From Thermoanaerobaculia bacterium (GTDB taxonomy: Bacteria > Acidobacteriota > Thermoanaerobaculia > Gp7-AA8), in NCBI GenBank assembly GCA_017883205.1, contig JADGNZ010000006.1, positions 1-64,000 on the forward strand: 64,000 bases of DNA. Reading direction: 5' to 3'. The notes beneath the pieces are model-generated. The model did no database searches and was not told where the DNA came from. It was given only the letters and a program-made list of their open reading frames with translations. The position numbers and the translations under genes are program-made. The number at the start of each line of letters is the position of its first letter. Position 1 is the first letter of the stretch. Below, in pieces: positions 2,464 through 62,779 of this stretch.

Positions 2464-2673
2464 CTACGGCTCAATATCCCACGGCTTCTCCCACCACCGC
2501 AGCTCGACACATCGCGATCGCGAGACCTCGTAATAGATCTTCTGAAGCTCGAGCAATTTGCGGAACTTGTCGGTAAGCGACGACGATCGCTGCCCGGCAG
2601 GCAGTCCGTGCTTGGCTTCGTACAGGCGGGCAATCAGTTCGTCGCTGGGTCTTTCGGGAGGTTCCGACGCCAT
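2464..2673 (-). CDS. Small conserved-looking hypothetical protein (69 aa)
   Basis: A 69-residue basic, probably helical cytoplasmic protein beginning MASEPPERPSDELIARLYEA and ending in a Trp-rich tail (RWWEKPWDIEP). I do not recognise a family. The ATG at 2673 is preferred because a good -10 box (TATACT) ends 6 nt upstream; the longer frame starting at 2736 would translate the palindromic element. It converges on the PilB-type ATPase gene and diverges from the VWFA gene across the element at 2693. A real but uncharacterised small gene is the most likely reading. Confidence 0.5.
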   Translation of the reverse strand: MASEPPERPSDELIARLYEAKHGLPAGQRSSSLTDKFRKLLELQKIYYEVSRSRCVELRWWEKPWDIEP

Positions 2674-2679
2674 CGCCCG

Positions 2680-2685
2680 AGTATA
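2680..2685 (-). promoter_or_regulatory. Leaderless-type -10 box TATACT
   Basis: TATACT on the minus strand ends 6 nt before the ATG at 2673, with no Shine-Dalgarno sequence between. This matches the TANNNT-N6-12-start pattern seen repeatedly in the window. Confidence 0.45.
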
Positions 2686-2692
2686 CGACTCG

Positions 2693-2790
2693 CGGAAGGG
2701 GTCAGACCGAAAGTGAAAGTGACGGAAAATGACCATGACACGGGCCCAAGACAGTTTCCGTCACTTTCACTTTCGGTCTGACCCCTTCCG
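2693..2790. repeat. GGGGTCAGACCGAAAG palindromic element, copy A
   Basis: An interspersed element with long inverted arms that begin CGGAAGGGGTCAGACC and continue AAAGTGAAAGTGAC, around a spacer of about 35 bp. Copies B (6741-6833) and C (8999-9091) conserve the arms and part of the spacer. Copy A ends 2 bp before the first possible ATG of the VWFA gene and copy B begins 1 bp after that gene's stop. It is short, palindromic and non-coding, like REP- or MITE-type elements; no transposase is present in the window. Confidence 0.85.
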
Positions 2791-2828
2791 TTATGATCGC
2801 CGGGCTCGTTGCAGCCCGGAGATCCCGA

Positions 2829-5800
2829 TTGAATCCTCGCTCGGCATTGGTTCTCGCTCTTTTCTTCGCGACCCCGGTGTTCGCGCAGGTTACCGAACGG
2901 ATCGATGTTTCCGCGATCGAAGTGCCGGTAGTCGTCCGCGACGCGAAAGGGAACGTTCCGGCCGGACTCACGCCGTCGGATTTCGTGCTGCTCGAGGACG
3001 GGAAGCCGCAGCAGATCATCGGCGTCGCCTATCCCGTGCAGGCGATTGCGACCGAATCCGCGCCGTCTCCGTCTGCGCCGGTTGCGCCGATTGCGGCCGC
3101 GCCCGCCCGACGGTGGCAGGTCGTCATCTTCATCCAGCAGTCGCTCTCGACAACGCGTGGCCTGAGTGGCGCACTCAAGGATCTGGCTTCGCACGCCGGC
3201 GAGCTGGTGGCACTCGGCGATGTGCAGATCGTGGGCGACGAGGGAGCGACGCCGCACGTCATTGCGCCCGCAACGAACAACGCCGAAACGCTGCGGACCA
3301 CGCTTCTCGATCTGGCGCCGAAGATTCGTGGTCAGGAGCTGATCACCCGGCTACGGGCGGACTTTGTCGCAGATGAACAAGCGGATGCCGGGAACCGGGA
3401 TCCATCATCGGCTCCGTCATCGGCTCCGTCATCGTCAGTGCCGCAGCGGAGCACCGGGCAATCCGTTCGCGCCATGGCGAACGCCCGGTTCGAGGCGCAG
3501 ATCGTCCGCGCGCGGCAGGATGCGATGCTGACCTGGACGTCACGTAACCAGGAGCCCGGGCGTCCGCATGCGCTCCTCGTTGTCACGGACGGTTACGACC
3601 TCGAGCCATACGACTTCTATGGCAGGCCGGATGGTGAGCGGGACACCGACTTGCGCGGCCTCGGATCCGCTCCGCACCAGGCGGAGATCGCCCAGGCGAT
3701 GGCGGCTAGCGGCTGGACGATCCTTAGCTTCGCTCCCGGCTGGATGAATAGCGCCGGATCGCCAACCTTCGATGTGTCGAACGCGGGGCGCGGCCGGCTG
3801 AATGACTTCGTCAAGTCTCCTGACGGCGGCATCGTGTCGCCCAACGCATTGAACATCCATCCGCTCGATCCGTTGCGCACATTGGCCGACGAGACCGGCG
3901 GAAGCGTGCAGACAAACGGGGCGAAGCTGGGCACCGATCTCGACCAGCTCGCGAACCGCATCGTGATCACGTACCAGCTACACCGGCCGCGAGACGGACG
4001 CGCGCACCACATCGAAGTCAAATCCCTGCGGCCAGGCATAAGCGTGCTTGCTCAGCGTTCCGTGGTCTCCGGAACGCCCGAAGCGCTGGCGGCGGCGCGG
4101 GCGACACTGCTTGCGGCCGATGCAAGCGAAGAGCGCGGGGAGTTGCCGGTGCGATGCACGGTCCGCCAAGTCGCCATTTCGAAGAACGCGAAGGACATCA
4201 CCTCGGAGCTCCTGGCCTTCGTCACGCTCACGCCGATCGATGCCGTCCGCTCGGGACTCACTGCCGGAACGCTGCGTTTCTCCATCGCGGTCCGTTCTGC
4301 CGGCGCGCCGCCTGTGACCATCTCGAAGCGCATGGAGAACCTCGACCTTTCGAAGCAGGCGAACTGGCGCATCGATTTTCAGGTGCATCACGAGCCCGGC
4401 GCGGTTATCGGAGTGGTCGCGGAAGAGATGGCCACAGGAGCGTGGGGTGGCGTGAGCTGCGGCGGTGCGGGGACTCCGGCCACTGCAGCCGAGACGAGTC
4501 CCTCTCTTCCGCCGTCCGGGAAGTGGAAGACACTGCCTGACGCCCTTGCGGCAGCGCAGGCGAGTGGAAGTCTCGTACTCCTCGATCTTCTTCCTACTGT
4601 CGGGGAGCAGATCAATCTGCATCGGACGCGCGCTAAGTTCAGAAGGCAGGAAGACGAATGGCTCGCTGCGGCGGAAAAGAATCCTGCCACGGCCCGGGCG
4701 ATGGAGGGGATGGTGCTCGCCGCGGCAGACGCCTCCGGTCTTAGGCGCTATCCCGATCTCCAGCGGACCTACGAAAGGAAGCGGCAACTGCTGGTCGTCG
4801 ACCCCTGGGGTGGCTTTGTTGGGAAGCCAAGGGGCGCCTATATCGACCAGAACATGTTCGCCGGCGACCTCAACGAGTTGCGCCGGCAGACGGCCACCTT
4901 CGTCCGCGCCGCCAAGGCCTTTCACGAAGGAAAGATCGGGCCAGCACTTGTGCTCCGTGGTGGTGCGCTGCTCGATGCCGGAGCCACAGACGCGGCAAAG
5001 GATGCTTTCCGGCTCGGCTACGCGACGGCGCAAAAGACCAACGACATTGAAACGATGCAGGGTGCACAGATCGGACTGGCGGCCATCGACCTTCCCGCGC
5101 AGAAGGCGGTGCGGTCGCTGGAAGAGATCACGGAGCATCCTGCCACCAGCGAGATCGGTGCCCGAGCCTGGATGTTGCTCGGGCACACGTATCGACAGAA
5201 CCGCGCTACGAAGCAGGCCATCGATGCCTACCAGAAATCGTTCGCGCTGGCGGCGAAACCGTCGATGCTGGCCGAAGCAGCGCGGCGGCACCTCGAGACA
5301 CTTGGCTCCGAACCTGAATCCGAACTGCGCGCCGCTCTGGCCGCGGACAGTGTCCATCTGCTCTACCCGCACAAAGACGTGATGTTTGGCAATGTCGACT
5401 TCGGCATCGCCGCTCCGGATGACGCCGCGCGCGTGGAGGTCTATCTCGACGATGTACGCGTCGCTGAGCTGACCCGTAATCCCTTCGTCACGAGAATAAA
5501 CCTCGGCAAGACTCCGCAGCCGCGCACGATACGCGCCGTCGCATTCGATTCTCAGGGCCGCAAGCTCGGCGAAGAGAAGGTGACGCTCAACGACATTGCC
5601 GGCGCGCTTGGCGTCGCTATCGTTGCGCCTACCAATGCGTCAGTGCGCTCGCGGACCACCGTGGAAGTGAAGCCGCGTGTCCCGCAGGGCACCCATCTCG
5701 ATGGCGTGGACCTCTATTGGAACGAGACGAAGATGGCCACGATGACCGAAGAACCGTTCCGCCATGAGCTCGTGCTGCCTTCACCGTCTGCGTCCGGCTT

Positions 5801-6740
5801 CATCCGCGTTGTCGCGCGCGCCAGCGACGGCACGGCCGCCGAGGACGTGAAGATGATCAACGCGGGCGGCGCCGCGGAGCAGATGCGCGTCGATGCGGTG
5901 CAGGTCTACGCCATCGTGCAGGACCGCAGCGGACACTACATCGATGGACTGAAAGCATCCGACTTCGTCGTCAAGGAAGATGGACGCAAGGTCACACCAG
6001 AGCTCCAAAGCGGAAGCGGCGATCCCATCTCCATCGGCATGGCTCTCGATACCTCGGCCAGCATGCAGGTGGTCATGAACGACGTGATGGACTACGCGAA
6101 TGAGTTCGTCGCGAATTCGCTGGGCGCGGCGGATCAGACATTCGTCACCGCGTTTGATACAGCGCCCCATCTCGTGCAGCCGCTGACGAACAATCGCAAG
6201 CAGCTTACGAACGCGATCTACGATCTGCATGCCGCTGGCGTTAGCACGGCCATCTGGGATGCGGTGCTCTACTCGCTGCAACAATTCCGCGGCGTGTCCG
6301 GCAAGCGCGCGCTGGTCGTCTTCACGGATGCCTTCAACAACGCGGGGACGGCAACGCCGGCGTCGGACCTGCAGTACGCGCGCGAAGTCGGAGTGCCCGT
6401 CTACTTCGTGGAGATCTTCGCCGGAACGCGATGGCCGGACATGCCACCGATCAATCCAGGCATGAACTATTTCGAAGGGCGAGCTGGCCCCGCGCCCTTG
6501 TCAATCGATGAGATCGGCATCAAACACCTGACCGAGTCGACCGGCGGCGCGTATTTTCGCTTCGCGGGCAAGAAGGATCTGCCGCATATTTTCTCGCAGA
6601 TCCGCGACGACACGCGCGGCCAGTACCTGCTCTCATACGTCTCGCCGGGCACCGCTCCGCGCGGGAACCTTCGCCGCATCAGCGTGCAAGTCCCAGGCAA
6701 ACAAGTGATCGTGCGTGCCACAAGCGGCTACTACCCGTAG
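2829..6740 (+). CDS. Secreted VWFA-domain protein of the acidobacterial type
   Basis: A very large exported protein (1303 residues from this start). A signal peptide (NPRSALVLALFFATPVFA) leads into a beta-rich motif (VVVRDAKGNVPAGLTPSDF) typical of acidobacterial VWFA proteins, then a first VWA-like domain whose metal site is degenerate (IFIQQSLS instead of DxSxS). A TPR-like helical stretch occupies the middle (about 690-860). Ig-like segments and a second motif copy (VYAIVQDRSGHYIDGLKASD) lead into a C-terminal VWA with an intact site (LDTSAS). Start: TTG at 2829 has GGAG 7 nt upstream and gives a clean signal peptide; the in-frame ATG at 2793 is an alternative lacking a ribosome site. The partner is unknown; adhesion or envelope-complex assembly is inferred. 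Confidence 0.85.
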   Translation: MNPRSALVLALFFATPVFAQVTERIDVSAIEVPVVVRDAKGNVPAGLTPSDFVLLEDGKPQQIIGVAYPVQAIATESAPSPSAPVAPIAAAPARRWQVVIFIQQSLSTTRGLSGALKDLASHAGELVALGDVQIVGDEGATPHVIAPATNNAETLRTTLLDLAPKIRGQELITRLRADFVADEQADAGNRDPSSAPSSAPSSSVPQRSTGQSVRAMANARFEAQIVRARQDAMLTWTSRNQEPGRPHALLVVTDGYDLEPYDFYGRPDGERDTDLRGLGSAPHQAEIAQAMAASGWTILSFAPGWMNSAGSPTFDVSNAGRGRLNDFVKSPDGGIVSPNALNIHPLDPLRTLADETGGSVQTNGAKLGTDLDQLANRIVITYQLHRPRDGRAHHIEVKSLRPGISVLAQRSVVSGTPEALAAARATLLAADASEERGELPVRCTVRQVAISKNAKDITSELLAFVTLTPIDAVRSGLTAGTLRFSIAVRSAGAPPVTISKRMENLDLSKQANWRIDFQVHHEPGAVIGVVAEEMATGAWGGVSCGGAGTPATAAETSPSLPPSGKWKTLPDALAAAQASGSLVLLDLLPTVGEQINLHRTRAKFRRQEDEWLAAAEKNPATARAMEGMVLAAADASGLRRYPDLQRTYERKRQLLVVDPWGGFVGKPRGAYIDQNMFAGDLNELRRQTATFVRAAKAFHEGKIGPALVLRGGALLDAGATDAAKDAFRLGYATAQKTNDIETMQGAQIGLAAIDLPAQKAVRSLEEITEHPATSEIGARAWMLLGHTYRQNRATKQAIDAYQKSFALAAKPSMLAEAARRHLETLGSEPESELRAALAADSVHLLYPHKDVMFGNVDFGIAAPDDAARVEVYLDDVRVAELTRNPFVTRINLGKTPQPRTIRAVAFDSQGRKLGEEKVTLNDIAGALGVAIVAPTNASVRSRTTVEVKPRVPQGTHLDGVDLYWNETKMATMTEEPFRHELVLPSPSASGFIRVVARASDGTAAEDVKMINAGGAAEQMRVDAVQVYAIVQDRSGHYIDGLKASDFVVKEDGRKVTPELQSGSGDPISIGMALDTSASMQVVMNDVMDYANEFVANSLGAADQTFVTAFDTAPHLVQPLTNNRKQLTNAIYDLHAAGVSTAIWDAVLYSLQQFRGVSGKRALVVFTDAFNNAGTATPASDLQYAREVGVPVYFVEIFAGTRWPDMPPINPGMNYFEGRAGPAPLSIDEIGIKHLTESTGGAYFRFAGKKDLPHIFSQIRDDTRGQYLLSYVSPGTAPRGNLRRISVQVPGKQVIVRATSGYYP

Positions 6741-6833
6741 AAGGGGTCAGACCGAAAGTGAAAGTGACGGAAAATGGCCATGGCACGGTCCCCAAGACAG
6801 TTTCCGGCACTTTCACTTTCGGTCTGACCCCTT
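6741..6833. repeat. GGGGTCAGACCGAAAG palindromic element, copy B
   Basis: A 93-bp copy of the element at 2693, starting at the base after the VWFA stop codon. Its right arm supplies the last residues (KGSDRK) and the stop codon of the convergent chemoreceptor gene, so it invaded or replaced that gene's 3' end. Confidence 0.85.
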
Positions 6834-8927: not shown

Positions 8928-8998
8928 TCGTTGGCTCAGTGGGTTCGCTCAGAACGGCTGTTGGCGCGCATAGTAATGCTTCGCGCTCTCCAATCGGT

Positions 8999-9091
8999 AA
9001 GGGGTCAGACCGAAAGTGAAAGTGACGAAAAGTGACTACGACGTCGGCTCTAAGACAATTCCCGTCACTTTCACTTTCGGTCTGACCCCTT
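8999..9091. repeat. GGGGTCAGACCGAAAG palindromic element, copy C
   Basis: The third copy of the 93-bp element, between the divergent chemoreceptor and GAF-ATPase genes. Arms match copies A and B; the spacer is more diverged. Confidence 0.85.
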
Positions 9092-9143
9092 CCGATATTG
9101 GAGTTTGCGCTATCCTTTTCTGCCACTTGGGAGAATCCAGACA

Positions 9144-11444: not shown

Positions 11445-11447
11445 AAC

Positions 11448-12587: not shown

Positions 12588-14483
12588 ATGACCACTACCT
12601 ACGACAGTTCTGCCATCGAAGTCCTCACCGGACTCGAGCCGGTGCGGAAGCGGCCCGGCATGTACACCACCACCGAGCGGCCCAACCATCTGGCGCAGGA
12701 GGTCATCGACAACTCGGCCGACGAAGCCATCGCCGGACACTGCGACGAGATCGTCGTCACGCTTCATGAGGACAACTCGGTCACCGTCGCCGACAACGGC
12801 CGCGGCATGCCGGTCGATCGTCACGCCAAAGAAGGCGTGACCGGCGTCGAAGTGATCCTCACGCGCCTCCACGCCGGCGCGAAGTTCTCCGACAAGAGCT
12901 ACCGCTTCTCCGGCGGCCTGCACGGCGTCGGCGTCTCCGTCGTCAACGCGCTCTCGAAGAAGCTCGAGGTGTGGGTCCGCCGCGACGGCAACGAATACCT
13001 GATGGTCTTCGGCGACGGCAAGAAGAAGCAGGAGCTGAAGATCGTCGGACAGGTCGGCAAACGCAACACCGGCACGACGATCCGCTTCTGGCCCGACGAG
13101 AAATTCTTCGACACGCCGAAGATCAATGTACCGCGCCTCAAGCACGTCATGCGCGCCAAAGCCGTTCTCGCGCCGGGCCTGCGCCTTCGCTTCATCAACG
13201 AGAACGATGCGACCGACAGCGAGGAGTGGTACTACGAGAACGGCCTGCCGGCGTACCTGATGTCCGAGCTGGCCGGCCTCACCACGATTCCGGAGATGCC
13301 ATACGTCGGCACGTTCAAGGGATCGAACGAGGAAGTCGATTGGGCCGTGGTCTGGTTGCCCGAGGACAGCGATCTCGTCACCGAGTCGTACGTGAACCTG
13401 ATCCCGACCGCGCAGGGCGGCACGCACGTCAACGGCTTCCGCACGGGGCTCACCGAGGCCATTCGTGAGTTCTGCGAGCTGCGGAATTTGCTCCCGCGCG
13501 GCGTGAAGCTGGCGCCGGAAGATGTCTGGTCGCACTGCAGCTACATCCTTTCGTTGCGGATGACGGAGCCGCAGTTCACCGGCCAGACGAAGGATCGATT
13601 GTCGTCGCGCGAAGCATCGGCGTTCGTCTCCGGCGTCGCGCAGGATTCCTTCTCAATCTGGCTGAACAACAACGTCGCCGACGCCGAGCGCATCGCCCAG
13701 GTCGCCATCGCCTCGGCCATGACGCGGCTGCGCCAGGGGAAGAAAGTCGAGCGCAAGAAACTGACGAGCGGTCCTGCGCTTCCCGGCAAACTCGCCGATT
13801 GCACATCGACCGATCTCAATCTCACCGAGCTTTTCCTCGTCGAAGGCGATTCCGCCGGCGGCTCCGCCAAGCAGGCCCGCGACCGCGAGTACCAGGCCAT
13901 CATGCCGTTGCGCGGCAAGATTCTGAACACGTGGGAAGTCGATCCGAACGAGGTTCTCTCCTCGCAGGAAGTGCACGACATCGCCGTCGCCCTCGGCGTC
14001 GATCCCGGTACCGACGATGTGAAAGGGCTGCGCTACGGCAAAGTCTGCATCCTCGCCGACGCCGACTCCGACGGCGCGCACATCGCCACGCTCCTGACCG
14101 CGCTCTTCGTCCGCCACTTCCGCAAGCTCGTCACCGACGGCCGCATCCACGTGGCCATGCCGCCGCTGTATCGCATCGACGTCGGCAAGAATGTTTTCTA
14201 CGCGCTGGACGACCACGAGCGCGACGGCATCCTGCAGCGCATCGAGGCCGAAGGGATCCGCGGCAAGGTCAACATTCAGCGCTTCAAAGGCCTCGGCGAA
14301 ATGAACCCGCTCCAGCTCCGCGAAACGACGATGAACCGCGACACCCGCCGCCTCGTCCAACTCGTCCTCGTGGCCGAGGATGGCGCGGATGCAACGATCG
14401 ACATGCTGCTGGCGAAAAACCGCGCGGGCGATCGCAAGCAGTGGCTGACCGAAGAAGGGGACAAGGCGGAGATATTGGAGTGA
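12588..14483 (+). CDS. parE: DNA topoisomerase IV subunit B
   Basis: The ATPase subunit of topoisomerase IV, which decatenates daughter chromosomes with ParC. At 631 residues it matches the E. coli ParE length. A GHKL ATPase domain opens with IEVLTGLEPVRKRPGMYT, has EVIDNSADEA and the glycine-rich lid FSGGLHGVGVSVVNAL. The TOPRIM domain has EGDSAGGSAKQARDREYQAI and the metal site DADSDGAHI, and the C-terminus contains QRFKGLGEMNP. ARDREYQAI with LNTWEV favours ParE over GyrB. The resemblance to gammaproteobacterial ParE runs along the whole length. No parC is in the window. Start ATG 12588 places the first conserved motif at residue 10. Confidence 0.93.
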   Translation: MTTTYDSSAIEVLTGLEPVRKRPGMYTTTERPNHLAQEVIDNSADEAIAGHCDEIVVTLHEDNSVTVADNGRGMPVDRHAKEGVTGVEVILTRLHAGAKFSDKSYRFSGGLHGVGVSVVNALSKKLEVWVRRDGNEYLMVFGDGKKKQELKIVGQVGKRNTGTTIRFWPDEKFFDTPKINVPRLKHVMRAKAVLAPGLRLRFINENDATDSEEWYYENGLPAYLMSELAGLTTIPEMPYVGTFKGSNEEVDWAVVWLPEDSDLVTESYVNLIPTAQGGTHVNGFRTGLTEAIREFCELRNLLPRGVKLAPEDVWSHCSYILSLRMTEPQFTGQTKDRLSSREASAFVSGVAQDSFSIWLNNNVADAERIAQVAIASAMTRLRQGKKVERKKLTSGPALPGKLADCTSTDLNLTELFLVEGDSAGGSAKQARDREYQAIMPLRGKILNTWEVDPNEVLSSQEVHDIAVALGVDPGTDDVKGLRYGKVCILADADSDGAHIATLLTALFVRHFRKLVTDGRIHVAMPPLYRIDVGKNVFYALDDHERDGILQRIEAEGIRGKVNIQRFKGLGEMNPLQLRETTMNRDTRRLVQLVLVAEDGADATIDMLLAKNRAGDRKQWLTEEGDKAEILE

Positions 14484-14717: not shown

Positions 14718-14723
14718 AGGATA
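14718..14723 (-). promoter_or_regulatory. Leaderless-type -10 box TATCCT
   Basis: TATCCT on the minus strand ends 6 nt before ATG 14711, with no Shine-Dalgarno in the gap. Confidence 0.4.
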
Positions 14724-22726: not shown

Positions 22727-22752
22727 ATTGTAGCAAGCACCTCCGCTACAAT
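22727..22752. promoter_or_regulatory. Divergent promoter palindrome carrying two TACAAT boxes
   Basis: ATTGTAGC at 22727-22734 and GCTACAAT at 22745-22752 form a perfect 8-bp inverted repeat with a 10-bp spacer. Each arm holds a TACAAT box pointing outward, 11 nt from the ATG at 22715 and 9 nt from the ATG at 22762. The 46-bp gap leaves no room for an ordinary leader. It could serve as paired -10 boxes and as an operator. Confidence 0.55.
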
Positions 22753-24255: not shown

Positions 24256-24261
24256 TATCAT
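24256..24261 (+). promoter_or_regulatory. Leaderless-type -10 box TATCAT
   Basis: TATCAT ends 6 nt before the TTG start at 24268, with no ribosome site between. Confidence 0.35.
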
Positions 24262-26435: not shown

Positions 26436-26441
26436 ATTGTA
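26436..26441 (-). promoter_or_regulatory. Leaderless-type -10 box TACAAT
   Basis: TACAAT on the minus strand ends 7 nt before ATG 26428. No Shine-Dalgarno lies between. Confidence 0.45.
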
Positions 26442-30744: not shown

Positions 30745-31077
30745 TCACCGATACTTCTTCACCGCCTTCGCCAGCGTCGATCCCTTGAGGAACGTCTCCT
30801 TTCGATAGCCAACGGTCTCGTCGTACACGTAGACCGTCACGCCGGCAGGCTCTTCGAGGAAGAAGTGTGTGCCGAGGGCGCTGGCGCGAAAGGTTACTTT
30901 CTCCTTGCCGTCGTGGGAGAGCTCGCCGAGGAACATCGCCATCGGATGGGCGATGGTTGCGGGGGCGATTGTTTTGGATGAGGTGCTCGCAGGCGTTTTC
31001 GGCGGGGGAGTGGCCGCGGAGGCGATCGAGGCAATCGAAGCGGCGGACAGAGCGAAGGCAAAGAGACGAAATCGCAT
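30745..31077 (-). CDS. Small exported hypothetical protein (110 aa)
   Basis: A 110-residue protein with a clear signal peptide (MRFRLFAFALSAASIASIASA), a Thr/Pro/Ala-rich linker and a compact C-terminal part (FLGELSHDGKEKVTFRAS to GYRKETFLKGSTLAKAVKKY). I do not recognise the family. ATG 31077 is chosen for the signal peptide and for TACAAT ending 6 nt upstream. It is divergent from the hydrolase gene at 31102 with only 24 bp between. Confidence 0.7.
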   Translation of the reverse strand: MRFRLFAFALSAASIASIASAATPPPKTPASTSSKTIAPATIAHPMAMFLGELSHDGKEKVTFRASALGTHFFLEEPAGVTVYVYDETVGYRKETFLKGSTLAKAVKKYR

Positions 31078-31083: not shown

Positions 31084-31093
31084 ATTGTAAGCT
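31084..31093. promoter_or_regulatory. Overlapping divergent -10 boxes
   Basis: ATTGTAAGCT holds TACAAT on the minus strand (31089-31084, 6 nt from ATG 31077) and TAAGCT on the plus strand (31088-31093, 8 nt from ATG 31102). Both genes would be leaderless, and the two promoters would exclude each other. Confidence 0.45.
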
Positions 31094-31101: not shown

Positions 31102-31728
31102 ATGTTCCTCATCGATGGTCCGGAAGATGCCGCGATCATGTACGCCTTCGCGCACGGCGCGGGTGGGGCGATGGACACGCCGTTCATGACGACGGTCGCG
31201 CGCGCTCTCGGTTCCCGCGGTATCCGCGTCGTGCGATTCGAGTTTCCGTACATGGCTGCGCGGCGGACGGGTGGGAAACGCGGCGCTCCCGATCGCCAGC
31301 CGCTGCTTCTGTCCACCTGGCGCGACGTCGTCGAAAAGTTGGGGAACCGTGAGCGATTGTTCATCGGCGGCAAATCGATGGGGGGGCGGATGGCGACGAT
31401 GGTTGCCGATGAATTGGGCGTCCGAGGCCTGGTCTGCTTTGGATATCCGTTCCATCCGCCGGGACAGCCGGGGAAAGTGCGCACCGCTCATCTCGAGACA
31501 CTGGCCACGCCGATGCTCGTACTGCAAGGCGAGCGTGATCCGTTCGGAAACCGCGAGGATGTGGCGACGTATCTCCTTTCGCCGTCGATCGAGGTCGAAT
31601 GGCTACCGGATGGAGACCACTCACTGAAGCCGCGGGCGAGCGCTGGAGTAACAGAAAAGGAGAATCTGGCCCGGGCGGTAGCAACCGCAGAAGCATTTAT
31701 GGCGAGAATATTGCTCCTGAATGACTGA
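31102..31728 (+). CDS. Alpha/beta hydrolase of the KANL3/Tex30 type
   Basis: A 208-residue cytosolic alpha/beta hydrolase. AFAHGAGGAMDTPFMT is the oxyanion-hole loop, the nucleophile elbow is FIGGKSMGGRMATM, the acid lies in LQGERDPFG and the base His in LPDGDHSLKPR. The physiological substrate of this family is unknown. ATG 31102 has TAAGCT 8 nt upstream. The 3' end overlaps the following response regulator gene by 8 bp, so the two are translated together. Confidence 0.83.
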   Translation: MFLIDGPEDAAIMYAFAHGAGGAMDTPFMTTVARALGSRGIRVVRFEFPYMAARRTGGKRGAPDRQPLLLSTWRDVVEKLGNRERLFIGGKSMGGRMATMVADELGVRGLVCFGYPFHPPGQPGKVRTAHLETLATPMLVLQGERDPFGNREDVATYLLSPSIEVEWLPDGDHSLKPRASAGVTEKENLARAVATAEAFMARILLLND

Positions 31729-33821: not shown

Positions 33822-33827
33822 ACTTTA
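33822..33827 (-). promoter_or_regulatory. Leaderless-type -10 box TAAAGT
   Basis: TAAAGT on the minus strand ends 8 nt before ATG 33813, without a ribosome site. Confidence 0.4.
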
Positions 33828-39929: not shown

Positions 39930-39935
39930 ATCTTA
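39930..39935 (-). promoter_or_regulatory. Leaderless-type -10 box TAAGAT
   Basis: TAAGAT on the minus strand ends 9 nt before ATG 39920, without a ribosome site. Confidence 0.4.
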
Positions 39936-40707: not shown

Positions 40708-40713
40708 AGGGTA
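40708..40713 (-). promoter_or_regulatory. Leaderless-type -10 box TACCCT
   Basis: TACCCT on the minus strand ends 6 nt before the pdxJ ATG. Confidence 0.4.
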
Positions 40714-49500: not shown

Positions 49501-49530
49501 TTGCCAGGTTGCAGGGTTGGTGAGTAGTCT
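49501..49530 (+). promoter_or_regulatory. cinA promoter, leaderless type
   Basis: TTGCCA at 49501-49506 and TAGTCT at 49525-49530 are 18 bp apart; the ATG follows 9 nt later. No ribosome site is present. Confidence 0.5.
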
Positions 49531-49539: not shown

Positions 49540-50865
49540 ATGAGCCACTCAGAAGCAGAGCAACAGAGCGCGCTGGCAACGGCGCAACGCGGCAACCCGG
49601 TAACCGGCCGGCCAGGCAACGCAGCAACGAAGTACACCGCCAGCATCATCGCCATCGGCTCCGAGATGCTCGGGCCGACGCGCGTGGACACGAACTCGCT
49701 CAAAGTCACCGCCGCGTTCGAGTCGTTCGGCATTGGCGTCGTGCGCAAGACGGTTGTCGGCGACCGGCAGGAGGAGCTGGTCGATGAGATCCGGCACTCG
49801 CTCGATCACTCCAGCATCCTCATCACTTCCGGCGGACTGGGGCCCACCGAAGACGACATGACGCGCGATGCGCTGGCTGCGGCGCTGGGGCTGGAGATGG
49901 AGATCGACCTCGGGATCGTGGAGCGGCTGGAGAAGCGCTTCGCGGCGCGCGGCTGGGTGATGCCGGAGGTCAACAAGCGTCAAGCCAACGTCTTCATCGG
50001 ACAGACGATGCTGCCGAACGAGCGGGGCACCGCTCCCGGTTTTCACATCGAGAAGGACGGCAAACACATCTGGGTGTTTCCGGGTGTGCCGCACGAGCTG
50101 GAATGGATGGTGGCGGCCTATCTCGTACCGTGGCTGGCTTCGATCACGGCGGGGCAATCGCGATTCCGGCGCGTGTTGAAGATCGCCGGGATGACGGAGT
50201 CGGGCGTCGAGGAGAAGCTGAAGCCTTACTACGCGGCGCATCCGGAGCCGTTGACGATTCTGGCGACGAGTGGTCAGACGGAACTGCATCTGGCCGAGGA
50301 TGGTGCGGAGATCGAGGCGCTGGCGGTGATCGCGTCGCGCGAAAGCGAGTTGCGCGAGCTGTTCGGCGACAAGATCTTCGGCGCCGACGATGACACGCTC
50401 GAAGGTGTGGTCGGCCGGATCCTGACCGAGCGTCACGAGACCGTCGCGACGGCGGAGTCGTGCACCGGCGGGCTGCTGGCCTCGCGCATCACCGATGTGC
50501 CGGGATCGTCCGCATACTTCATGGGCGGCGCGGTCTGCTACACCGCGGCGGCGAAGAGGGACCTGGCCGGAGTCGATCCGGAGTTGATCCGCGAGCACGG
50601 CGAGGTATCAGAGCCGGTTGCGGTCGCGCTGGCGCGCGGCGCGCGCGAGCGGTTCGGTACGACGTATGGGATCGGTGTGACCGGCATCGCCGGGCCGGGC
50701 GGGGGGACGGAGGCGAAGCCGGTCGGGACCGTCCATATCGCGGTGGCAGGACCGAACGGACAGAAGCATCGCAAGTTGTTCTGGCCGATCGAACGGACGC
50801 TCTTCAAACGCATCACCACGCAGTCCGCGCTCGACCTGCTGCGATTGTTCATCGTGCGCACGTAG
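49540..50865 (+). CDS. cinA: CinA: competence/damage-inducible protein with nicotinamide-nucleotide amidohydrolase domain
   Basis: A 441-residue cytosolic protein. The N-terminal MoeA-like domain opens SIIAIGSEMLGPTRVDTNS and has LITSGGLGPTEDDMTRDAL, linked to ADP-ribose or NMN hydrolysis; the C-terminal amidohydrolase domain (about 285-441) has TAESCTGGLLASRI, GGAVCYTAAAKRDLAGV and GVTGIAGPGGGTEAKPVGTV. It recycles the NAD by-product NMN. About 30 extra residues precede the usual start; ATG 49540 is supported by a promoter 9 nt upstream. The gene is followed by vapBC. Confidence 0.9.
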   Translation: MSHSEAEQQSALATAQRGNPVTGRPGNAATKYTASIIAIGSEMLGPTRVDTNSLKVTAAFESFGIGVVRKTVVGDRQEELVDEIRHSLDHSSILITSGGLGPTEDDMTRDALAAALGLEMEIDLGIVERLEKRFAARGWVMPEVNKRQANVFIGQTMLPNERGTAPGFHIEKDGKHIWVFPGVPHELEWMVAAYLVPWLASITAGQSRFRRVLKIAGMTESGVEEKLKPYYAAHPEPLTILATSGQTELHLAEDGAEIEALAVIASRESELRELFGDKIFGADDDTLEGVVGRILTERHETVATAESCTGGLLASRITDVPGSSAYFMGGAVCYTAAAKRDLAGVDPELIREHGEVSEPVAVALARGARERFGTTYGIGVTGIAGPGGGTEAKPVGTVHIAVAGPNGQKHRKLFWPIERTLFKRITTQSALDLLRLFIVRT

Positions 50866-50873
50866 CGTACACT
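50845..50873 (+). promoter_or_regulatory. vapBC promoter, leaderless type
   Basis: TTGTTC at 50845-50850 and TACACT at 50868-50873 are 17 bp apart; the ATG at 50882 is 8 nt later. The -35 lies inside the end of cinA. Confidence 0.4.
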
Positions 50874-50881: not shown

Positions 50882-51157
50882 ATGAAGCGCATGAATGTGA
50901 TTCTCGACGAAGAGGCGCTGGAGCGGGCACGTCACGCGACCGGCGAGAGAACGTATTCAGCTACGATCAATCGCGCGCTCATTGAGGTTGCTCGGATTGA
51001 GATTTTGCGCGATGGCATCGACCGAATTGAACACACGAGCTTCTGGCCTGGATACGTCGCGGAGTTCGGGCCGAACCCTCCTGTAACTGAAGAGCAGATG
51101 AAACGGCTTCGGCGTTCGGCTCGAGTCGTTCGCGCTCCTCGTTCCAAGAAGCCGTGA
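50882..51157 (+). CDS. VapB-type antitoxin
   Basis: A 91-residue DNA-binding antitoxin. Its N-terminus (MKRMNVILDEEALERARHAT) has the strand-helix-helix pattern of VapB-like regulators, followed by RTYSATINRALIEVARIE. The C-terminal tail, which would wrap round the toxin, contains GIDRIEHTSFWPGYVAEFG and a basic end. Start ATG 50882 is supported by the promoter; ATG 50891 is an alternative. Its stop overlaps the start of the PIN toxin gene by 4 bp. Confidence 0.82.
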   Translation: MKRMNVILDEEALERARHATGERTYSATINRALIEVARIEILRDGIDRIEHTSFWPGYVAEFGPNPPVTEEQMKRLRRSARVVRAPRSKKP

Positions 51158-51558
51158 TCCTGGTCGATACGAGTGTTTGGCTGATGGACCGCCGCCGTTT
51201 CCGGCTTGCTGATGTCGTGCCTCTTGACCAGATCGCGGTTTGCGGTCCGATTATTCAGGAGGTCCTCCAGGGAACCCGCAACGAGGAGTTCTGCGGGCGC
51301 CAGCGCATGCTCCTTCAAACTCATCTCGTGGATATTCCGCTGCCGCTCAGCCGGTTTGAGTACGCGGCGGAGATCTACACCACGCTGCGAGCGGGCGGCA
51401 TCACGATCCGTTCCGCTAACGACTGCCTGATCGCAGCTATCGCGCTACTCAATCGGATCGAGCTGGTGCATGCAGACCGCGATTTCGACTACATCGCTGA
51501 AGTCATCAATCTCGATGCCCGCAACATTAACCCTTCCGCATCAACAGCACGTTCGTGA
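51154..51558 (+). CDS. VapC-type PIN-domain toxin (ribonuclease)
   Basis: A 134-residue PIN nuclease. The acidic catalytic set is present: Asp in ILVDTSVW, Glu in IIQEVLQGTR, Asp in SANDCLIAAIAL and Asp in HADRDFDYIAEV. It would cut RNA, often tRNA, when not bound by VapB. The GTG start at 51154 overlaps the antitoxin stop (GTGA). The last ~10 residues (INPSASTARS) run into the 3' end of the convergent rseP gene, a 32-bp overlap. Confidence 0.87.
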   Translation: MILVDTSVWLMDRRRFRLADVVPLDQIAVCGPIIQEVLQGTRNEEFCGRQRMLLQTHLVDIPLPLSRFEYAAEIYTTLRAGGITIRSANDCLIAAIALLNRIELVHADRDFDYIAEVINLDARNINPSASTARS

Positions 51559-54111: not shown

Positions 54112-54123
54112 ATGTCAGGTTCT

Positions 54124-54205: not shown

Positions 54206-54210
54206 GGCCC

Positions 54211-55035: not shown

Positions 55036-55038
55036 AAA

Positions 55039-55127
55039 TAGAGATCAGAGACAAGAGATCGGAGATCAGAGGAGCTCCAAGGTCAGGATGGCAACCCGAT
55101 CTCTGATCTCTGGCCGCTGATCTCTCC
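55039..55127. repeat. GATCAGAG fold-back repeat
   Basis: GAGATCGGAGATCAGAG on the left faces CTCTGATCTCTGGCC on the right across about 30 bp, in the gap between cdsA and uppS and abutting the uppS stop codon. Confidence 0.65.
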
Positions 55128-55943: not shown

Positions 55944-55955
55944 CTGGAGCCGGGG

Positions 55956-55961
55956 ATGGTA
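55956..55961 (-). promoter_or_regulatory. Possible -10 box TACCAT before uppS
   Basis: TACCAT on the minus strand ends 12 nt before the uppS ATG; the transcript would have at most a few leader bases. Confidence 0.35.
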
Positions 55962-56196
55962 TCGCAAAGCCGCACGGCTGCGGCGCGCGTTGTCGGTTGA
56001 CGCTTGATTGCGCGGCATCTGCGTCGTCGATTCGCGCGGGAAACGCCGACTTGCTTCCTGTACGGATTGAATTAGTGGCACAAGGCGTGCTCGTCCTCTG
56101 CCGGCTTTCCTGATCTGACTACTCGTCTCACGTGAGGACGGCCGTGTGGCCGTCATCTCTGATGTCGTCGTCCAACCATTTGGCAAGGAGGTTTAT

Positions 56197-57600: not shown

Positions 57601-57615
57601 CTGCGCGACATCGCA

Positions 57616-57641
57616 CGAGCCGGGCGTTTCGACGCCCGGCT
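57616..57641 (+). terminator. Hairpin after the di-heme gene
   Basis: GAGCCGGGCG and CGCCCGGCTC form a 10-bp stem 15 bp past the stop. There is no T-run. Confidence 0.45.
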
Positions 57642-57661
57642 CCATTCGCCGAAGGAGAAAC

Positions 57662-58606
57662 ATGCCGCTCCTGATTCGCCGCTCCATCTCCCTGGTATTC
57701 ATCGTGTGGTTCTGCCTCGCGATCAGTGCGTCGCAAGGGTCAAATCCGCATCGTGCTGGCGGAGTGATTCCCAAGGGCGAAATCCTCGTGAAGGGAGCGG
57801 TACCGGCAGCCAGCGACTCGACGACGCCGCTGCCGGAAGATGGAAAGGTCGTCGACGGCCGCTACCGCAACGATTATTTCGGGCTCGTGTACCCGATTCC
57901 TGACAAGTGGAGCGAGCAAGCGGCGGGGCCTCCTCCTTCGGACAGCGGCAGCTACGTGCTGGAGCAACTCGCGCTGGTTGATCGGGAGCAGAGAGTGAAG
58001 GCGCATGTGCTGATTACGGCGCAGGATCTTTTCTTCAGCGCGCTTCCCGTCGCCAACGCCACGGAGTTGATCGCGGCGCTCCGCGCGGGCCTGGCGCCCC
58101 TGTACGAGATCGAGCGGGAGCCCGATGAGGTGAAAATCGCCGGCCGCACGTTTGCCCGCTTCCGCTACAAATCAGCGGTCGCCGGCCTCCATTGGCGGAT
58201 TCTTTCGACCGATGTGCGGTGTCATGCCGTGACCTTCACGTTCACCGGTACCGACACCGAGGCGCTCGATGATGCGGAGCGCGGGTTGCGCGACATCTCG
58301 CTCAACCCGGACGCTCCGTCGTGTGTCGCTGGATACGCAAGCGGCGAGAACGTTCTCGAGAGGATCGATCCGCATTTTTCCGCCCGGCGCTACAACACGA
58401 TTCCGGTGCGCGTCATCATCGACCGTGAAGGCAAGGTGAAGCACATCCATCTCCTCAGCGCGTTTCTCGATCAGTCAGACACGATCATTGCCGCGCTGCG
58501 CCAGTGGCACTTCAAACCATATCTTCGCGACGGCAGAGCCGCCGAGGTGGAGACAGGACTCGTATTCGGTACCCCGCGGACGATTCTCCGGCTTCCGGGA
58601 AAGTAG
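57662..58606 (+). CDS. Exported protein with TonB C-terminal-like domain
   Basis: A 314-residue protein with an N-terminal signal (LVFIVWFCLAISASQG), a middle part of unknown type (about 60-215, opening YFGLVYPIPDKWSEQA) that resembles an alpha-beta photosystem-style or DUF1795-like fold, and a C-terminal TonB-like domain (IPVRVIIDREGKVKHIHLLS to ALRQWHFKPYLRDG). The last pattern is common in acidobacterial 'energy transducer' proteins without ExbB/D partners. GAAGGAG stands before ATG 57662, so it may follow the di-heme gene in one transcript. Confidence 0.75.
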   Translation: MPLLIRRSISLVFIVWFCLAISASQGSNPHRAGGVIPKGEILVKGAVPAASDSTTPLPEDGKVVDGRYRNDYFGLVYPIPDKWSEQAAGPPPSDSGSYVLEQLALVDREQRVKAHVLITAQDLFFSALPVANATELIAALRAGLAPLYEIEREPDEVKIAGRTFARFRYKSAVAGLHWRILSTDVRCHAVTFTFTGTDTEALDDAERGLRDISLNPDAPSCVAGYASGENVLERIDPHFSARRYNTIPVRVIIDREGKVKHIHLLSAFLDQSDTIIAALRQWHFKPYLRDGRAAEVETGLVFGTPRTILRLPGK

Positions 58607-58629
58607 CCAGCGCATAGGTTTGATTTCGC

Positions 58630-59382
58630 TCATCGTCTCGAGCTCTCCACTTCGAGACGAATGATGCGGAGATCGAGTCCGGCGACAATGCGCTCGACCT
58701 TCTCGTCGAGTCGGTCGATCTTCTCATTGGCCATGGTCACACCGTCGGCCACACCCTTGACGAGGTGCCGCATTTCTTCGACCGTGGCTCCGAACAGCAG
58801 CCGTGTATCGGCGTGGGCGGCTGCGATCTCTTCATGAATCTCCCGCCGCAGCGCTTCGGTCGTCATGTGGATTTGTTGCCGCGTTTCGTCATGGGCGGCT
58901 GCGTTCTCGTCGCGGATCTCCTGTCGCATCGCGTTGGTTGTGGTCTCAACGTATCGACGCGTTTCCGCGTGAGCGGCTGCGTTCTCGTCGCGGATCTCCT
59001 GCCGCATCGCGCTGGTTGTGGTCTCAATGTATCGACGCGTTTCCGCGTGAGCGGCAGCGCTCTCTTCGCGGGTTTCCTGTCGCAACGCTTCGATCGTAGT
59101 TTCAACGTACCGTCGCGTTTCGGCGTGTGCCGCGGCGTTTTCCTGCCGCAGCCCCTCAGCCGAAGTCTCAACGTATCGTCGCGTTTCTGTATGAGCGGCC
59201 GCATTCTCCTCACGCAACGCTTCGATCGTGCTTTCTACACATCGTAGTGTTTCGGCAAGCGCTGCGGCGGTCTCCTGCCTTAGCGTGTCAGCCGTCTTCT
59301 CGACGTTTCGCCGCGTCTCCACATGAGCAGCCGCGTTCTCGCTACGCATTTCTTCGAGCACCCGTTTGAGGTCGTCATCCAT
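58630..59382 (-). CDS. Coiled-coil repeat protein
   Basis: A 250-residue, wholly helical cytoplasmic protein. Six or seven repeats of 20-27 residues, each like LRQENAAAHAETRRYVETT, run from about residue 10 to 185, followed by a heptad segment (ANEKIDRLDEKVERIVAGLD). The two best repeats (DENAAAHAETRRYVETT preceded by AMRQEIR) are nearly identical, which points to recent internal duplication. It has no signal peptide or membrane helix. Function unknown; a structural or fibre-forming role is a guess. TACGAT lies 9 nt before the ATG. Confidence 0.7.
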   Translation of the reverse strand: MDDDLKRVLEEMRSENAAAHVETRRNVEKTADTLRQETAAALAETLRCVESTIEALREENAAAHTETRRYVETSAEGLRQENAAAHAETRRYVETTIEALRQETREESAAAHAETRRYIETTTSAMRQEIRDENAAAHAETRRYVETTTNAMRQEIRDENAAAHDETRQQIHMTTEALRREIHEEIAAAHADTRLLFGATVEEMRHLVKGVADGVTMANEKIDRLDEKVERIVAGLDLRIIRLEVESSRR

Positions 59383-59390
59383 AGCCCGAA

Positions 59391-59397
59391 TATCGTA
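59391..59397 (-). promoter_or_regulatory. Leaderless-type -10 box TACGAT
   Basis: TACGAT on the minus strand ends 9 nt before the coiled-coil gene's ATG. The position may be off by one base. Confidence 0.35.
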
Positions 59398-59434
59398 CCT
59401 CGGCTGCGCGAAAGCTACCGCTCGTAGACTCCTT

Positions 59435-60142
59435 CTAGTACCGCACGTCCCACAACGTCAGTCCCTTCGCCGGCGCCGTCCACCGCGCGACCTTCCAGAT
59501 CGCCTCCGGCTCCAGTTTTCCGCGGCCGATTTCGATCAGCGAGCCGACGATGCGGCGAACCATCGAGCGAAGGAAGCCGTCGGCGCTGACCGTGATCGTG
59601 ATCGCCGCGCCGTCGCCAACGACGTCGATCGCTGTGATCGTCCGCTCGGTCGAGCTCACTTCCGGGCCGGCCACGGTGAAGATGGCGAAGTCGTGGCGGC
59701 CCAGCAACTGCTGCGCTGTTGCGTGCATCAGCGCAACATCGAGCGGTTGGGGGACATGCGCGCTCGTCTCCGCGGCGAAGACGTCCGCGACTTCGTCATT
59801 CCAGATCCGGTAGACGTAGGTCTTCGACTTCGCGATGAAGCGGCAGTGGAAGTCGTCCGCGACGCTCTCGACGCCGGTCACACGAATGTCGCGCGGCAAC
59901 AGATCATTGAGGCCGCGCTGGAAACCGCGCATCTCGATGTCGAAGGGTGCGTCGAAATGCGCGCGCTGCGCTCGGGCATGAACGCCGGAGTCCGTACGGC
60001 CGGCGCCTTCGATGCGGATGGAACCACCGAACATGGTCGACAGCGCTTGCTCGATCACGTTCTGAATTGCAGTGGCGTTCGTCTGCGACTGCCAGCCGGC
60101 GTAGTGCGTGCCGAGGTATTGAATCGTGAGGAGAAGACGCAC
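59435..60142 (-). CDS. truA: tRNA pseudouridine(38-40) synthase
   Basis: A 235-residue enzyme that isomerises uridines 38-40 of tRNA anticodon arms. The catalytic Asp lies in EGAGRTDSGVHARAQ; other family segments are IQYLGTHYAGWQSQ, CRFIAKSKTYVYRIWN and FLRSMVRRIVGSLIEIGRGK. The start is a GTG at 60142, 7 bp after the stop of the preceding gene, so the two are co-transcribed. Confidence 0.94.
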   Translation of the reverse strand: MRLLLTIQYLGTHYAGWQSQTNATAIQNVIEQALSTMFGGSIRIEGAGRTDSGVHARAQRAHFDAPFDIEMRGFQRGLNDLLPRDIRVTGVESVADDFHCRFIAKSKTYVYRIWNDEVADVFAAETSAHVPQPLDVALMHATAQQLLGRHDFAIFTVAGPEVSSTERTITAIDVVGDGAAITITVSADGFLRSMVRRIVGSLIEIGRGKLEPEAIWKVARWTAPAKGLTLWDVRY

Positions 60143-60149
60143 GGAGGCG

Positions 60150-60911
60150 TTACTTCACGCTCTCGATCGTTACAATCGAGGCCTCGGTGAGATGCGATGC
60201 CGCCCCTTCGCCCTCGTAGGTCATCGACACCGCAACGCGCACTGGTTTCGTGCGAGGCTCAGACCTACCTCCGCCCGACATTTCCATCGTCAAGTCGTCC
60301 ATGTCCTCGTGGGAGATGGCGCAGATGCTGCGCGGCAGCAGCATCGAAACCTCGTACTCCTTTTTGCCCGGGGAGGCTTTGATGTCGGTGATGGCAAACT
60401 GAAGAAAATTGCTCGGAGATGAGAACTGCACGTTATTCAGACGGCTGCTCTGCATGACGATGGTGTGCCACTTCAATAGATCGTCCTTCATCCGTTCGAT
60501 GAGGGCAGGATCCTGGGCGACGGGAGGCTTCTTCGCTTCGGGCGGGCTTCCAGCGAGCGACGCGTACTGGCAGAGGGTCTTCCTGTCCGCCAGCGGCTGC
60601 AGATGAGAGCGGAACGTGACGCGTGTGGCATCGCCGCTTTTCTCGGCTTTGACGTCCAGTCCTTCCGCCTCGATGATGCCTTTGGCGGGTTGCGTCCAAT
60701 GAATCGTGACGCCCGCCTTTGCCAGCAACCACGGTAGCCGTTCGACGACCGCTTCCGGCGTAAGGCTGGTCAGCACAAACGTCTCCGAGGTCGTACCGTC
60801 AGTCTTGTAGTTCAGCTCGCACGCGGGTTCGGCTGCCGCCAGCCGGCCAGCACAGATGGCAATGACGATGAAGGAAGCAGCAGAGGCTAGAGGAATCCGT
60901 AGGCGCATCAT
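60150..60911 (-). CDS. Exported hypothetical protein
   Basis: A 253-residue protein with a signal peptide (RLRIPLASAASFIVIAICAG) and no recognised family. Two cysteines (PACELNYKTDG and KTLCQYASLAG) and another in RSICAISHED could form a disulfide. A helical stretch (DPALIERMKDDLLKWHTIVM) lies in the middle and the end is beta-rich. ATG 60911 is chosen for the signal peptide; a TTG at 60920 with GAGG five bases upstream is an alternative. It precedes truA by 7 bp. Confidence 0.65.
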   Translation of the reverse strand: MMRLRIPLASAASFIVIAICAGRLAAAEPACELNYKTDGTTSETFVLTSLTPEAVVERLPWLLAKAGVTIHWTQPAKGIIEAEGLDVKAEKSGDATRVTFRSHLQPLADRKTLCQYASLAGSPPEAKKPPVAQDPALIERMKDDLLKWHTIVMQSSRLNNVQFSSPSNFLQFAITDIKASPGKKEYEVSMLLPRSICAISHEDMDDLTMEMSGGGRSEPRTKPVRVAVSMTYEGEGAASHLTEASIVTIESVK

Positions 60912-60969
60912 GGCGGACAAAGGAACCTCAGCACGAACAGTCTTAATCCCAGCGAGGAAGCTGCGGACT

Positions 60970-60975
60970 TACAAT
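60970..60975 (+). promoter_or_regulatory. Leaderless-type -10 box TACAAT
   Basis: TACAAT ends 7 nt before ATG 60983, with no usable ribosome site. Confidence 0.45.
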
Positions 60976-60982
60976 CGAGGCG

Positions 60983-61444
60983 ATGAAATACTGGCTGATG
61001 AAGTGCGAGCCCTCCGCGTATTCGATCGATGATCTGGCCCGCGACGGCACGTCGAGTTGGGAAGGCGTCCGCAACTACCAGGCGCGCAATTTCATGCGCG
61101 ACGAGATGAAGGCGGGCGACCGCGTCCTTTTCTATGCCTCGAACGCGGATCCTTCCGGCGTTACCGGCATCGCCGAGATCAGCCGTGAGGCCTATCCCGA
61201 CAAGTTCGCCCGCCAGAAGGGACACGACTATTACGACGAGAAGTCGACCGCTGAGAACCCGATCTGGTACATGGTGGACATCCGGTTCGTCGAGAAGTTC
61301 CCGCACATCGTTTCGCTCGAGACCTTGAAATCCGCGCCCGGCCTCGAGGAGATGGTCGTGACGAAGAAAGGCTCGCGCCTGTCGATCCAGCCGGTGACGA
61401 AGAGCGAGTTCGGCATCGTGCGAGCGCTGGGCCGCAGCAAATGA
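60983..61444 (+). CDS. EVE-domain protein
   Basis: A 153-residue protein that is one EVE domain, related to THYN1 and the PUA-like fold that binds modified bases. It opens [18 protein letters not shown] and has [20 protein letters not shown] and [10 protein letters not shown], the usual pocket residues. Bacterial members are thought to recognise modified cytosine or modified RNA. ATGA links it to the macro-domain gene downstream. Start ATG 60983 is fixed by homology. Confidence 0.9.
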
Positions 61445-61950
61445 CGCGATTCGAGATCGTCGCGGGCGACATCACGAAGCTCGATATCGATGCGATCGTG
61501 AACGCTGCGAACTCGTCGCTGCTTGGCGGCGGCGGCGTCGATGGAGCGATCCACCGCGCTGCCGGTCCCGAGCTCCTCGCGGCTTGCCGGCTCCTCGGCG
61601 GTTGCGTAACCGGCGACGCGAAGATCACTCCCGGATTCCGTCTACCGGCGAAATACGTGATCCACACTGTCGGCCCGGTCTGGCACGGCGGCACACAGGG
61701 CGAGCCGGCATTGCTCGCGTCGTGCTACCGCCGCAGCCTCGAGCTGGCGCTGGCGAACGATGTGCGGACGATCGCGTTCCCGGCGATCAGTTGCGGTGTC
61801 TACGGCTATCCGATCGATGCGGCGGCGGAGATCGCCGTTGGTGAGACGGCGCGAGTGCTCGCCGGCGGCGAGTCGATCGATCGCGTCCTCTTCGCTGCGT
61901 TCGGTGATGACGTCCGGCGCGCGCTGGAACGCTCCTTGCGGAAGTCGTAG
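61441..61950 (+). CDS. Macro-domain (O-acetyl-ADP-ribose deacetylase-type) protein
   Basis: A 169-residue single macro domain that binds ADP-ribose and probably removes it, or its acetyl form, from targets. The pocket motifs are [37 protein letters not shown] and [12 protein letters not shown]. Its start overlaps the EVE stop by 4 bp, so the two proteins are made together. The GTCGGG fold-back repeat starts directly after its stop. Confidence 0.92.
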
Positions 61951-61951
61951 G

Positions 61952-62025
61952 ACGCCGGGCGTCGGATGTCGGAGAGCGGTGCCCTTCGGCAACTCCGACC
62001 CCCGACACCCGACGTCCTACGAAAT
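61952..62025. repeat. GTCGGG fold-back repeat, copy d
   Basis: GTAGGACGCCGGGCGTCGG and CCGACACCCGACGTCCTAC face each other across a short loop, starting 2 bp after the macro-domain stop codon. Confidence 0.7.
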
Positions 62026-62038
62026 TCGCATCAGGTGC

Positions 62039-62044
62039 TACTCT
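62039..62044 (+). promoter_or_regulatory. Leaderless-type -10 box TACTCT
   Basis: TACTCT ends 9 nt before ATG 62054, with no ribosome site. Confidence 0.4.
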
Positions 62045-62053
62045 ATCTACAGC

Positions 62054-62779
62054 ATGCCTAAGTTCTTCTTCTACGCTGGCACCGGTTTTTGCCTCTTTCT
62101 GGCGCTTTGCGCGGCCGCGGGGCTGATGTCGCAGGCAGAAGGCGGGCCGATGGTTTTCGCGGCGGTGCGCGGTACCTCCGTGTCGGGAACGAATGCGGCG
62201 GCGTGGGCAATCATGGTTGCGTTGATCGCCGGCATTGCCACAGCGGCAATCCTCATCCGGATGGCGGCGCTGCTGGCGGCGCGCAATGTCTTCGGCGCGC
62301 TTTTCGCGCTGCTGTCGACCACGGCGTCGATCGTCGCTCTTGCCTGGACGCTGTTGCTGCAAGCGCGCATGCTGATGCTCGTCCGGCATGGACTCGGATA
62401 CGCGGAGTTGGCGCCGTTTCATTTCGCAGCATTGATGATGCTCGGCTGCTTCGTCTCGCTGGCCTTCCTGGCGCTGCGCCCGTACTTCTCCGTGCAAGCC
62501 AGCCGCGTTCTCTCCGCGCTCGTCTTCCTGCCATTCCCGCTCTACTGCCTGATCCTCGAGCAGGAGCTTTTCGTTTCGACGAAGCTCTCGCCGCTGCCTT
62601 CGGTCTCGCCCGCATCGAATGTCTTTTTCGGCGTCGTGGCCATTCTCTTTTTCGCCGTGGCCATGCACTGCGTCCGCCATCGTCACATGTTCATCGAGAC
62701 GACCAATCTTCGTGAACTGCTTGACACGCGCGTCGATCGCACGACCCGCCCCATCGGCGGAGTGGCGTTCGATTCGTAA
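62054..62779 (+). CDS. Hypothetical membrane protein (about six helices)
   Basis: A 241-residue membrane protein with helices near residues 5-25, 50-72, 80-105, 120-145, 150-170 and 190-210. The C-terminal tail is soluble and basic (RHRHMFIETTNLRELLDTRV). I recognise no family. ATG 62054 is chosen for the first helix and for TACTCT 9 nt upstream. The frame extending back to 61760 is a shadow of the macro-domain gene. It precedes dnaE on the same strand by about 180 bp. Confidence 0.6.
   Translation: MPKFFFYAGTGFCLFLALCAAAGLMSQAEGGPMVFAAVRGTSVSGTNAAAWAIMVALIAGIATAAILIRMAALLAARNVFGALFALLSTTASIVALAWTLLLQARMLMLVRHGLGYAELAPFHFAALMMLGCFVSLAFLALRPYFSVQASRVLSALVFLPFPLYCLILEQELFVSTKLSPLPSVSPASNVFFGVVAILFFAVAMHCVRHRHMFIETTNLRELLDTRVDRTTRPIGGVAFDS

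Follow-up and report, generated by a model that had tools for sequence, protein, structure and literature searches.

In a 64-kb stretch of DNA from an uncultured Thermoanaerobaculia bacterium, many genes have a TANNNT hexamer a few bases before the start codon. The question raised is whether these hexamers are promoter elements whose transcripts would begin at the start codon itself. The stretch (referred to here as the window) covers positions 1 to 64,000 of a 169,859-bp contig and has a GC content of 62%; the surrounding assembly has 105 contigs, totals 6.37 Mb and is 99.7% complete. A ParE-like gyrase B (12588-14483) shows 94% identity to a protein of a Thermoanaerobaculia bacterium MAG and 85-86% identity to gp7 Acidobacteria MAGs, and four genes neighbouring it have counterparts (74-94% identity) on the same contig of the first of these MAGs. 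The placement in Acidobacteriota, class Thermoanaerobaculia, is thus supported by more than one gene. Outside gp7, the nearest relatives found for this gyrase are gammaproteobacterial proteins (approximately 70% identity), which suggests horizontal transfer.

A preliminary description of the window had listed 17 starts with TANNNT ending 6-12 nt upstream. All 17 hexamers are present, with five TACAAT and one TATACT among them. The sites are as follows.

2680..2685, minus strand: TATACT, 6 nt before ATG 2673 (69-aa ORF, no Pfam match)
14718..14723, minus strand: TATCCT, 6 nt before ATG 14711 (DUF1902 protein, 60 aa, clear Pfam match)
22727..22732, minus strand: TACAAT, 11 nt before ATG 22715 (DUF4388/FHA protein)
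22747..22752, plus strand: TACAAT, 9 nt before ATG 22762 (MFS transporter)
24256..24261, plus strand: TATCAT, 6 nt before TTG 24268 (rhomboid protease)
26436..26441, minus strand: TACAAT, 7 nt before ATG 26428 (CDP-alcohol phosphatidyltransferase)
31084..31093, both strands: ATTGTAAGCT, two overlapping putative -10 elements with the central TA in common, for 31077 (minus) and 31102 (plus)
30745..31077, minus strand: secreted-type protein, 110 aa, leaderless candidate (TACAAT, spacer 6)
31102..31728, plus strand: alpha/beta hydrolase (Abhydrolase_11), leaderless candidate (TAAGCT, spacer 8)
33822..33827, minus strand: TAAAGT, 8 nt before ATG 33813 (mixture model 0.60 for the TA class)
39930..39935, minus strand: TAAGAT, 9 nt before ATG 39920 (methyltransferase)
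40708..40713, minus strand: TACCCT, 6 nt before ATG 40701 (PdxJ)
49525..49530, plus strand: TAGTCT, 9 nt before ATG 49540 (CinA; weak case)
50868..50873, plus strand: TACACT, 8 nt before ATG 50882 (VapB-like antitoxin of a VapBC-like pair)
55956..55961, minus strand: TACCAT, 12 nt before ATG 55943 (congener: TAACAT at spacer 12)
59392..59397, minus strand: TACGAT, 9 nt before ATG 59382
60970..60975, plus strand: TACAAT, 7 nt before ATG 60983
62039..62044, plus strand: TACTCT, 9 nt before ATG 62054 (start uncertain; the mixture model prefers GTG 61979)

The PdxJ start is firm because position 1 of the Pfam profile aligns at residue 2, and protein homology also fixes the starts of the alpha/beta hydrolase (31102) and of PurM, which is encoded outside the window. 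Starts 2673, 14711 and 50882 belong to short ORFs of 60-91 aa. The DUF4388/FHA and MFS genes are divergent, with 46 bp between their start codons. The VapB-like antitoxin (weak Pfam match, below the cut-off) overlaps a PIN-domain protein by 4 bp (50882-51558). The N-terminal ~30 residues of CinA (49540-49640) are encoded by DNA rich in GCAAC/GTAAC repeats and are mostly absent outside the genus. CinA was rejected as a conserved leaderless gene, the motif being found mainly within its own genus.

The sequence studied comprised the window and 800 kb outside it (0.86 of 6.37 Mb, approximately 14% of the genome). Gene starts were taken from a home-made caller that uses codon usage only and ignores upstream sequence (motif-blind), and the background rate was that of TANNNT in a 7-position range further upstream of the same genes. 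In the 800 kb outside the window, TANNNT at a spacer of 6-12 nt precedes 112 of 670 genes, compared with approximately 22 by background (p~1e-45). The motif-blind starts of the window give 10 of 50 genes (p = 4e-6). The local background is 3.2% of genes, in agreement with the earlier estimate that chance matches should be found at a few percent of starts. The preliminary description had also proposed a genome-wide histogram of TANNNT positions; as compiled on approximately 14% of the genome, this histogram has the predicted peak. In the held-out 800 kb, 2 genes have a spacer of 5, followed by an abrupt rise to 30, 23, 23 and 23 genes at spacers 6, 7, 8 and 9 (background 3.9 per position) and a return to background by 13-14. 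In the whole genome, TANAATN6ATG occurs 76 times and the reversed pattern 3 times, while the corresponding counts in whole Enterobacterales genomes used as controls are 66/51, 71/51, 84/86 and 128/100.

The explanation that the hexamers are chance AT-rich sequence, or an artefact of picking starts with the motif, has a negligible probability: although the 17 starts were chosen with knowledge of the motif and some of their ORFs are short or doubtful, it is refuted by the held-out test, in which motif-blind starts outside the window give the same peak, 100 dinucleotide shuffles of the 670 upstream sequences (mean 21.7) never exceeded 33 compared with the real 112, gammaproteobacteria run through the same pipeline have no peak, and the motif is kept in orthologs.

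The proportion of genes involved can be bracketed. In one pipeline, the blind excess is 13.8% in this genome, 9-26% in same-family relatives and 14.1% in Deinococcus plasmids, and it is negative in the gammaproteobacterial controls (E. coli, Enterobacterales and others). With a flat spacer prior, a mixture model assigns TAcAAT at 6-9 nt to 28% of genes and a GGAG-type Shine-Dalgarno (SD) sequence to about half. When applied to Deinococcus, this model gives a TA class of 35%; when applied to Enterobacterales, the TA class dissolves (0.04 bits). The predicted leaderless share is between approximately 14% (the blind excess, a lower limit since miscalled starts reduce it) and 28% (the mixture model, a likely ceiling and probably high). 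Among 297 Acidobacteriota genomes, TANAATN6ATG is commoner than the reversed control in most. Leaderless usage appears to vary within the phylum, because the blind excess ranges from approximately 0 to 13% in small samples from ten genomes, and the family of the window is at the upper end of this predicted usage. One 2.0-Mb genome of the same class has no TANAATN6ATG excess (94, compared with 143 for the control), unlike its relatives.

The hexamer has the consensus T-A-n-A-(A/C)-T, that of a -10 element. TTGACA-like -35 matches (spacing 16-19, at least 4 matching bases) are present at 14 of 109 sites, compared with approximately 12 expected from permuted hexamers, and so show no excess. The sharp lower edge at 6 nt is expected of a promoter because with a shorter spacer, transcription would begin within the start codon. 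Alternatively, TANNNT could act in translation, like the AT-rich ribosome-binding sites known from Bacteroidota; its position would fit such a site, with the SD sequence replaced. A ribosome-binding site should also occur inside operons, yet the motif is depleted there, being found in 4% of genes that lie no more than 10 nt behind a same-strand gene compared with 27% of those whose upstream neighbour is divergent. SD matches are found at 16% of TA genes, compared with a background of 23% and with 45% of all genes. This exclusion of SD sequences and the depletion in operons together favour a promoter over a ribosome-binding site. The consensus is also that of a -10 hexamer with no A-rich tract, the 6-nt edge fits a promoter and divergent pairs have one double-sided element in common. 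A purely translational role is thus very improbable.

Good ribosome sites had been described as present in only a minority of genes. This holds for strong SD sites (5-base match; 20% of genes compared with a background of 6%) but not for the weaker SD signal, which is widespread. Because a search of the assembly for a 16S gene found none, the anti-SD was examined in a relative from the same family, in which CCUCC is intact (...GGATCACCTCCTTTCT). This suggests that SD and leaderless initiation coexist.

The motif is conserved in orthologs of several genes. For the DUF4388/FHA gene (22715), 14 of 16 orthologs, some with identities as low as 42-48%, have TANNNT no more than 14 nt from the start. 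It is kept in 9/9 genomes for the MFS gene (22762) and in 5/5 for the VapB-like antitoxin (50882). All 16 genomes compared at purM have TATAAT, TACACT, TAGACT, TAAACT, TACAAT or TAGGAT. Across orthologs, the T, the A and the final T are constant and the middle bases drift.

The model that we favour is that the hexamers are -10 elements of housekeeping-sigma promoters, at which RNA polymerase would start at, or a few bases from, the first base of the start codon; we consider this highly likely. The resulting mRNAs would have no room for an SD leader, and ribosomes would presumably recognize their 5' start codon directly. Ordinary SD initiation would coexist, chiefly for genes inside operons. 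Hexamer position, the 6-nt edge, the -10 consensus, SD exclusion, operon depletion and ortholog conservation can be read from the DNA; from these we infer where the RNAs begin, which sigma factor is used and how ribosomes are recruited. The earlier claim that this genome is rich in leaderless genes is strongly supported at the sequence level by the held-out excess, the operon depletion and the orthologs, and a leaderless mechanism in this Thermoanaerobaculia genome is very probable.

The strict form of this model is opposed by the longer spacers: those of 10-13 nt imply leaders of approximately 3-6 nt instead of none. The hexamers could be true -10 elements from which transcription starts just upstream of the gene (leaders of 1-6 nt), or secondary promoters beside longer, leadered ones. 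Spacers do reach 12-14 nt, and those of the 22715 gene and its orthologs are mostly 9-14 nt. Most spacers, however, are 6-9 nt, and some divergent pairs are too tight for a second, leadered promoter. Adenine is also avoided in the stretch from the -10 to the start codon (13% compared with 23%), as if no good initiation site should precede the purine of the start codon; a preference for pyrimidines at -1 does not reach significance (p = 0.17). Leaders of up to approximately 5 nt are usually counted as leaderless, so the short-leader explanation is a shade of the favoured one. We consider it unlikely, though less so than the other alternatives.

The organization of two divergent gene pairs would extend the leaderless model. 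The 24-bp gap between 31077 and 31102 contains ATTGTAAGCT, with TACAAT on one strand, TAAGCT on the other and a common TA. Both gap and core are identical in both congeners, while flanking bases differ. In a second genus, the gap is 25 bp and contains ATTGTATGCT. In three more genera, the gaps are 17-19 bp and the hexamers overlap almost wholly; the forward hexamer of one of these is GATTGT, outside the TANNNT rule. At the purM locus (C1:86134/86162), a divergent membrane gene starts 21-28 bp away in seven genomes, with overlapping -10s such as ATGCTAGACT. Start-codon distances at both loci are 18-29 bp (gaps 17-28 bp). Among 109 divergent pairs in the sampled DNA, 6 combine start codons no more than 70 bp apart with a TANNNT on each side, compared with 0 of 90 in gammaproteobacteria.

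Single two-sided examples are weak evidence because TA is self-complementary: given one TANNNT in a gap of 24-27 bp, random sequence supplies a second on the opposite strand in approximately 25% of cases. The bidirectional case thus rests on conservation at the two loci. The exact pattern CATN7ANNNTANNNTN6ATG occurs once in this genome (compared with 0 for the control) and is therefore not a frequent design; in the class, leaving aside one AT-rich genome, there is a small excess (by eye, approximately 12 compared with 2). In a scan for ATG-ATG divergent ORFs, overlapping false ORFs swamped the signal. Two other pairs in the sampled DNA have overlapping -10s, namely a SAM hydroxide adenosyltransferase and a DUF2064 protein (C2:88094/88121, start codons 26 bp apart) and a patatin and an unknown protein (C2:177352/177376, 23 bp apart). 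For the conserved pairs of the family (31077/31102; purM and the membrane protein), it is fairly probable that a single symmetric double -10 core (ANNNTANNNT, or the fully overlapping TATTGTA type) would give rise to two mRNAs that begin at their respective start codons. These back-to-back pairs are conserved in several genera, among which they seem to switch between 23-bp and 18-bp bidirectional-promoter arrangements.

Acidobacteriota abound in soil, but most have not been cultured, and the gene finders used to annotate them were designed for SD sites. A leaderless share of 14-28% would therefore cause systematic start-site errors in annotation; start 26428, for example, was missed by the motif-blind caller. 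These results add a deep lineage with predicted Deinococcus-like usage and help in asking how often mixed SD/leaderless initiation arose. Back-to-back start codons also provide an RNA-free test of promoter symmetry, as the protein starts give a predicted transcription start spacing.

The preliminary description knew of no documented case for this lineage. For the phylum this is incorrect: in the survey of Zheng et al. (2011), all three Acidobacteria genomes sequenced at that time were predicted to have TA-led leaderless genes, at 9.7-19.4% (mean 13.3%; PMC3160421). Those genes resemble the present ones in having TANNNT approximately 10 nt before the start codon and no SD sequence. The present analysis differs in treating an uncultured Thermoanaerobaculia/gp7 family and in adding ortholog footprints and an operon-position test. 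More widely, the GeneMarkS-2 survey, as cited in PMC9581028, predicted leaderless transcription in 21.6% of bacterial species. The literature searched, which most subscription papers lay outside, held no report of leaderless genes in the class Thermoanaerobaculia, nor of bidirectional leaderless promoters with a shared -10. Putative bidirectional leaderless promoters, conserved within the family, are apparently the new part of this work, and the part that a specialist would find new.

In Deinococcus-Thermus, a -10 motif adjacent to the ORF, with no need for a -35, serves about a third of genes (PMC12340547). Deinococcus and the present genome have in common TANNNT with a spacing constraint and a blind excess of approximately 14%. 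The Deinococcus spacer is more sharply at 6, and leaderless transcription is proven there by experiment, whereas here it is predicted. In Mycobacterium tuberculosis, RNA-seq mapping found a quarter of genes to be leaderless, with toxin-antitoxin modules over-represented and a divergent leaderless pair, prpD/Rv1129c (PMC3898074). The window belongs to a different phylum but likewise has a leaderless candidate in a toxin-antitoxin module (the VapB-like 50882) and divergent pairs. Warman et al. describe bidirectional E. coli promoters with symmetric, overlapping -10s, whose start sites tend to lie 10, 18 or 23 bp from each other (PMC12825309). The present pairs are similar in having overlapping opposite-strand -10s. 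If start codons stand in for start sites, their distances of 18-29 bp would be near the 18- and 23-bp classes. Unlike in the E. coli paper, the text of which never says leaderless, it is the start codons themselves that lie at about those spacings here.
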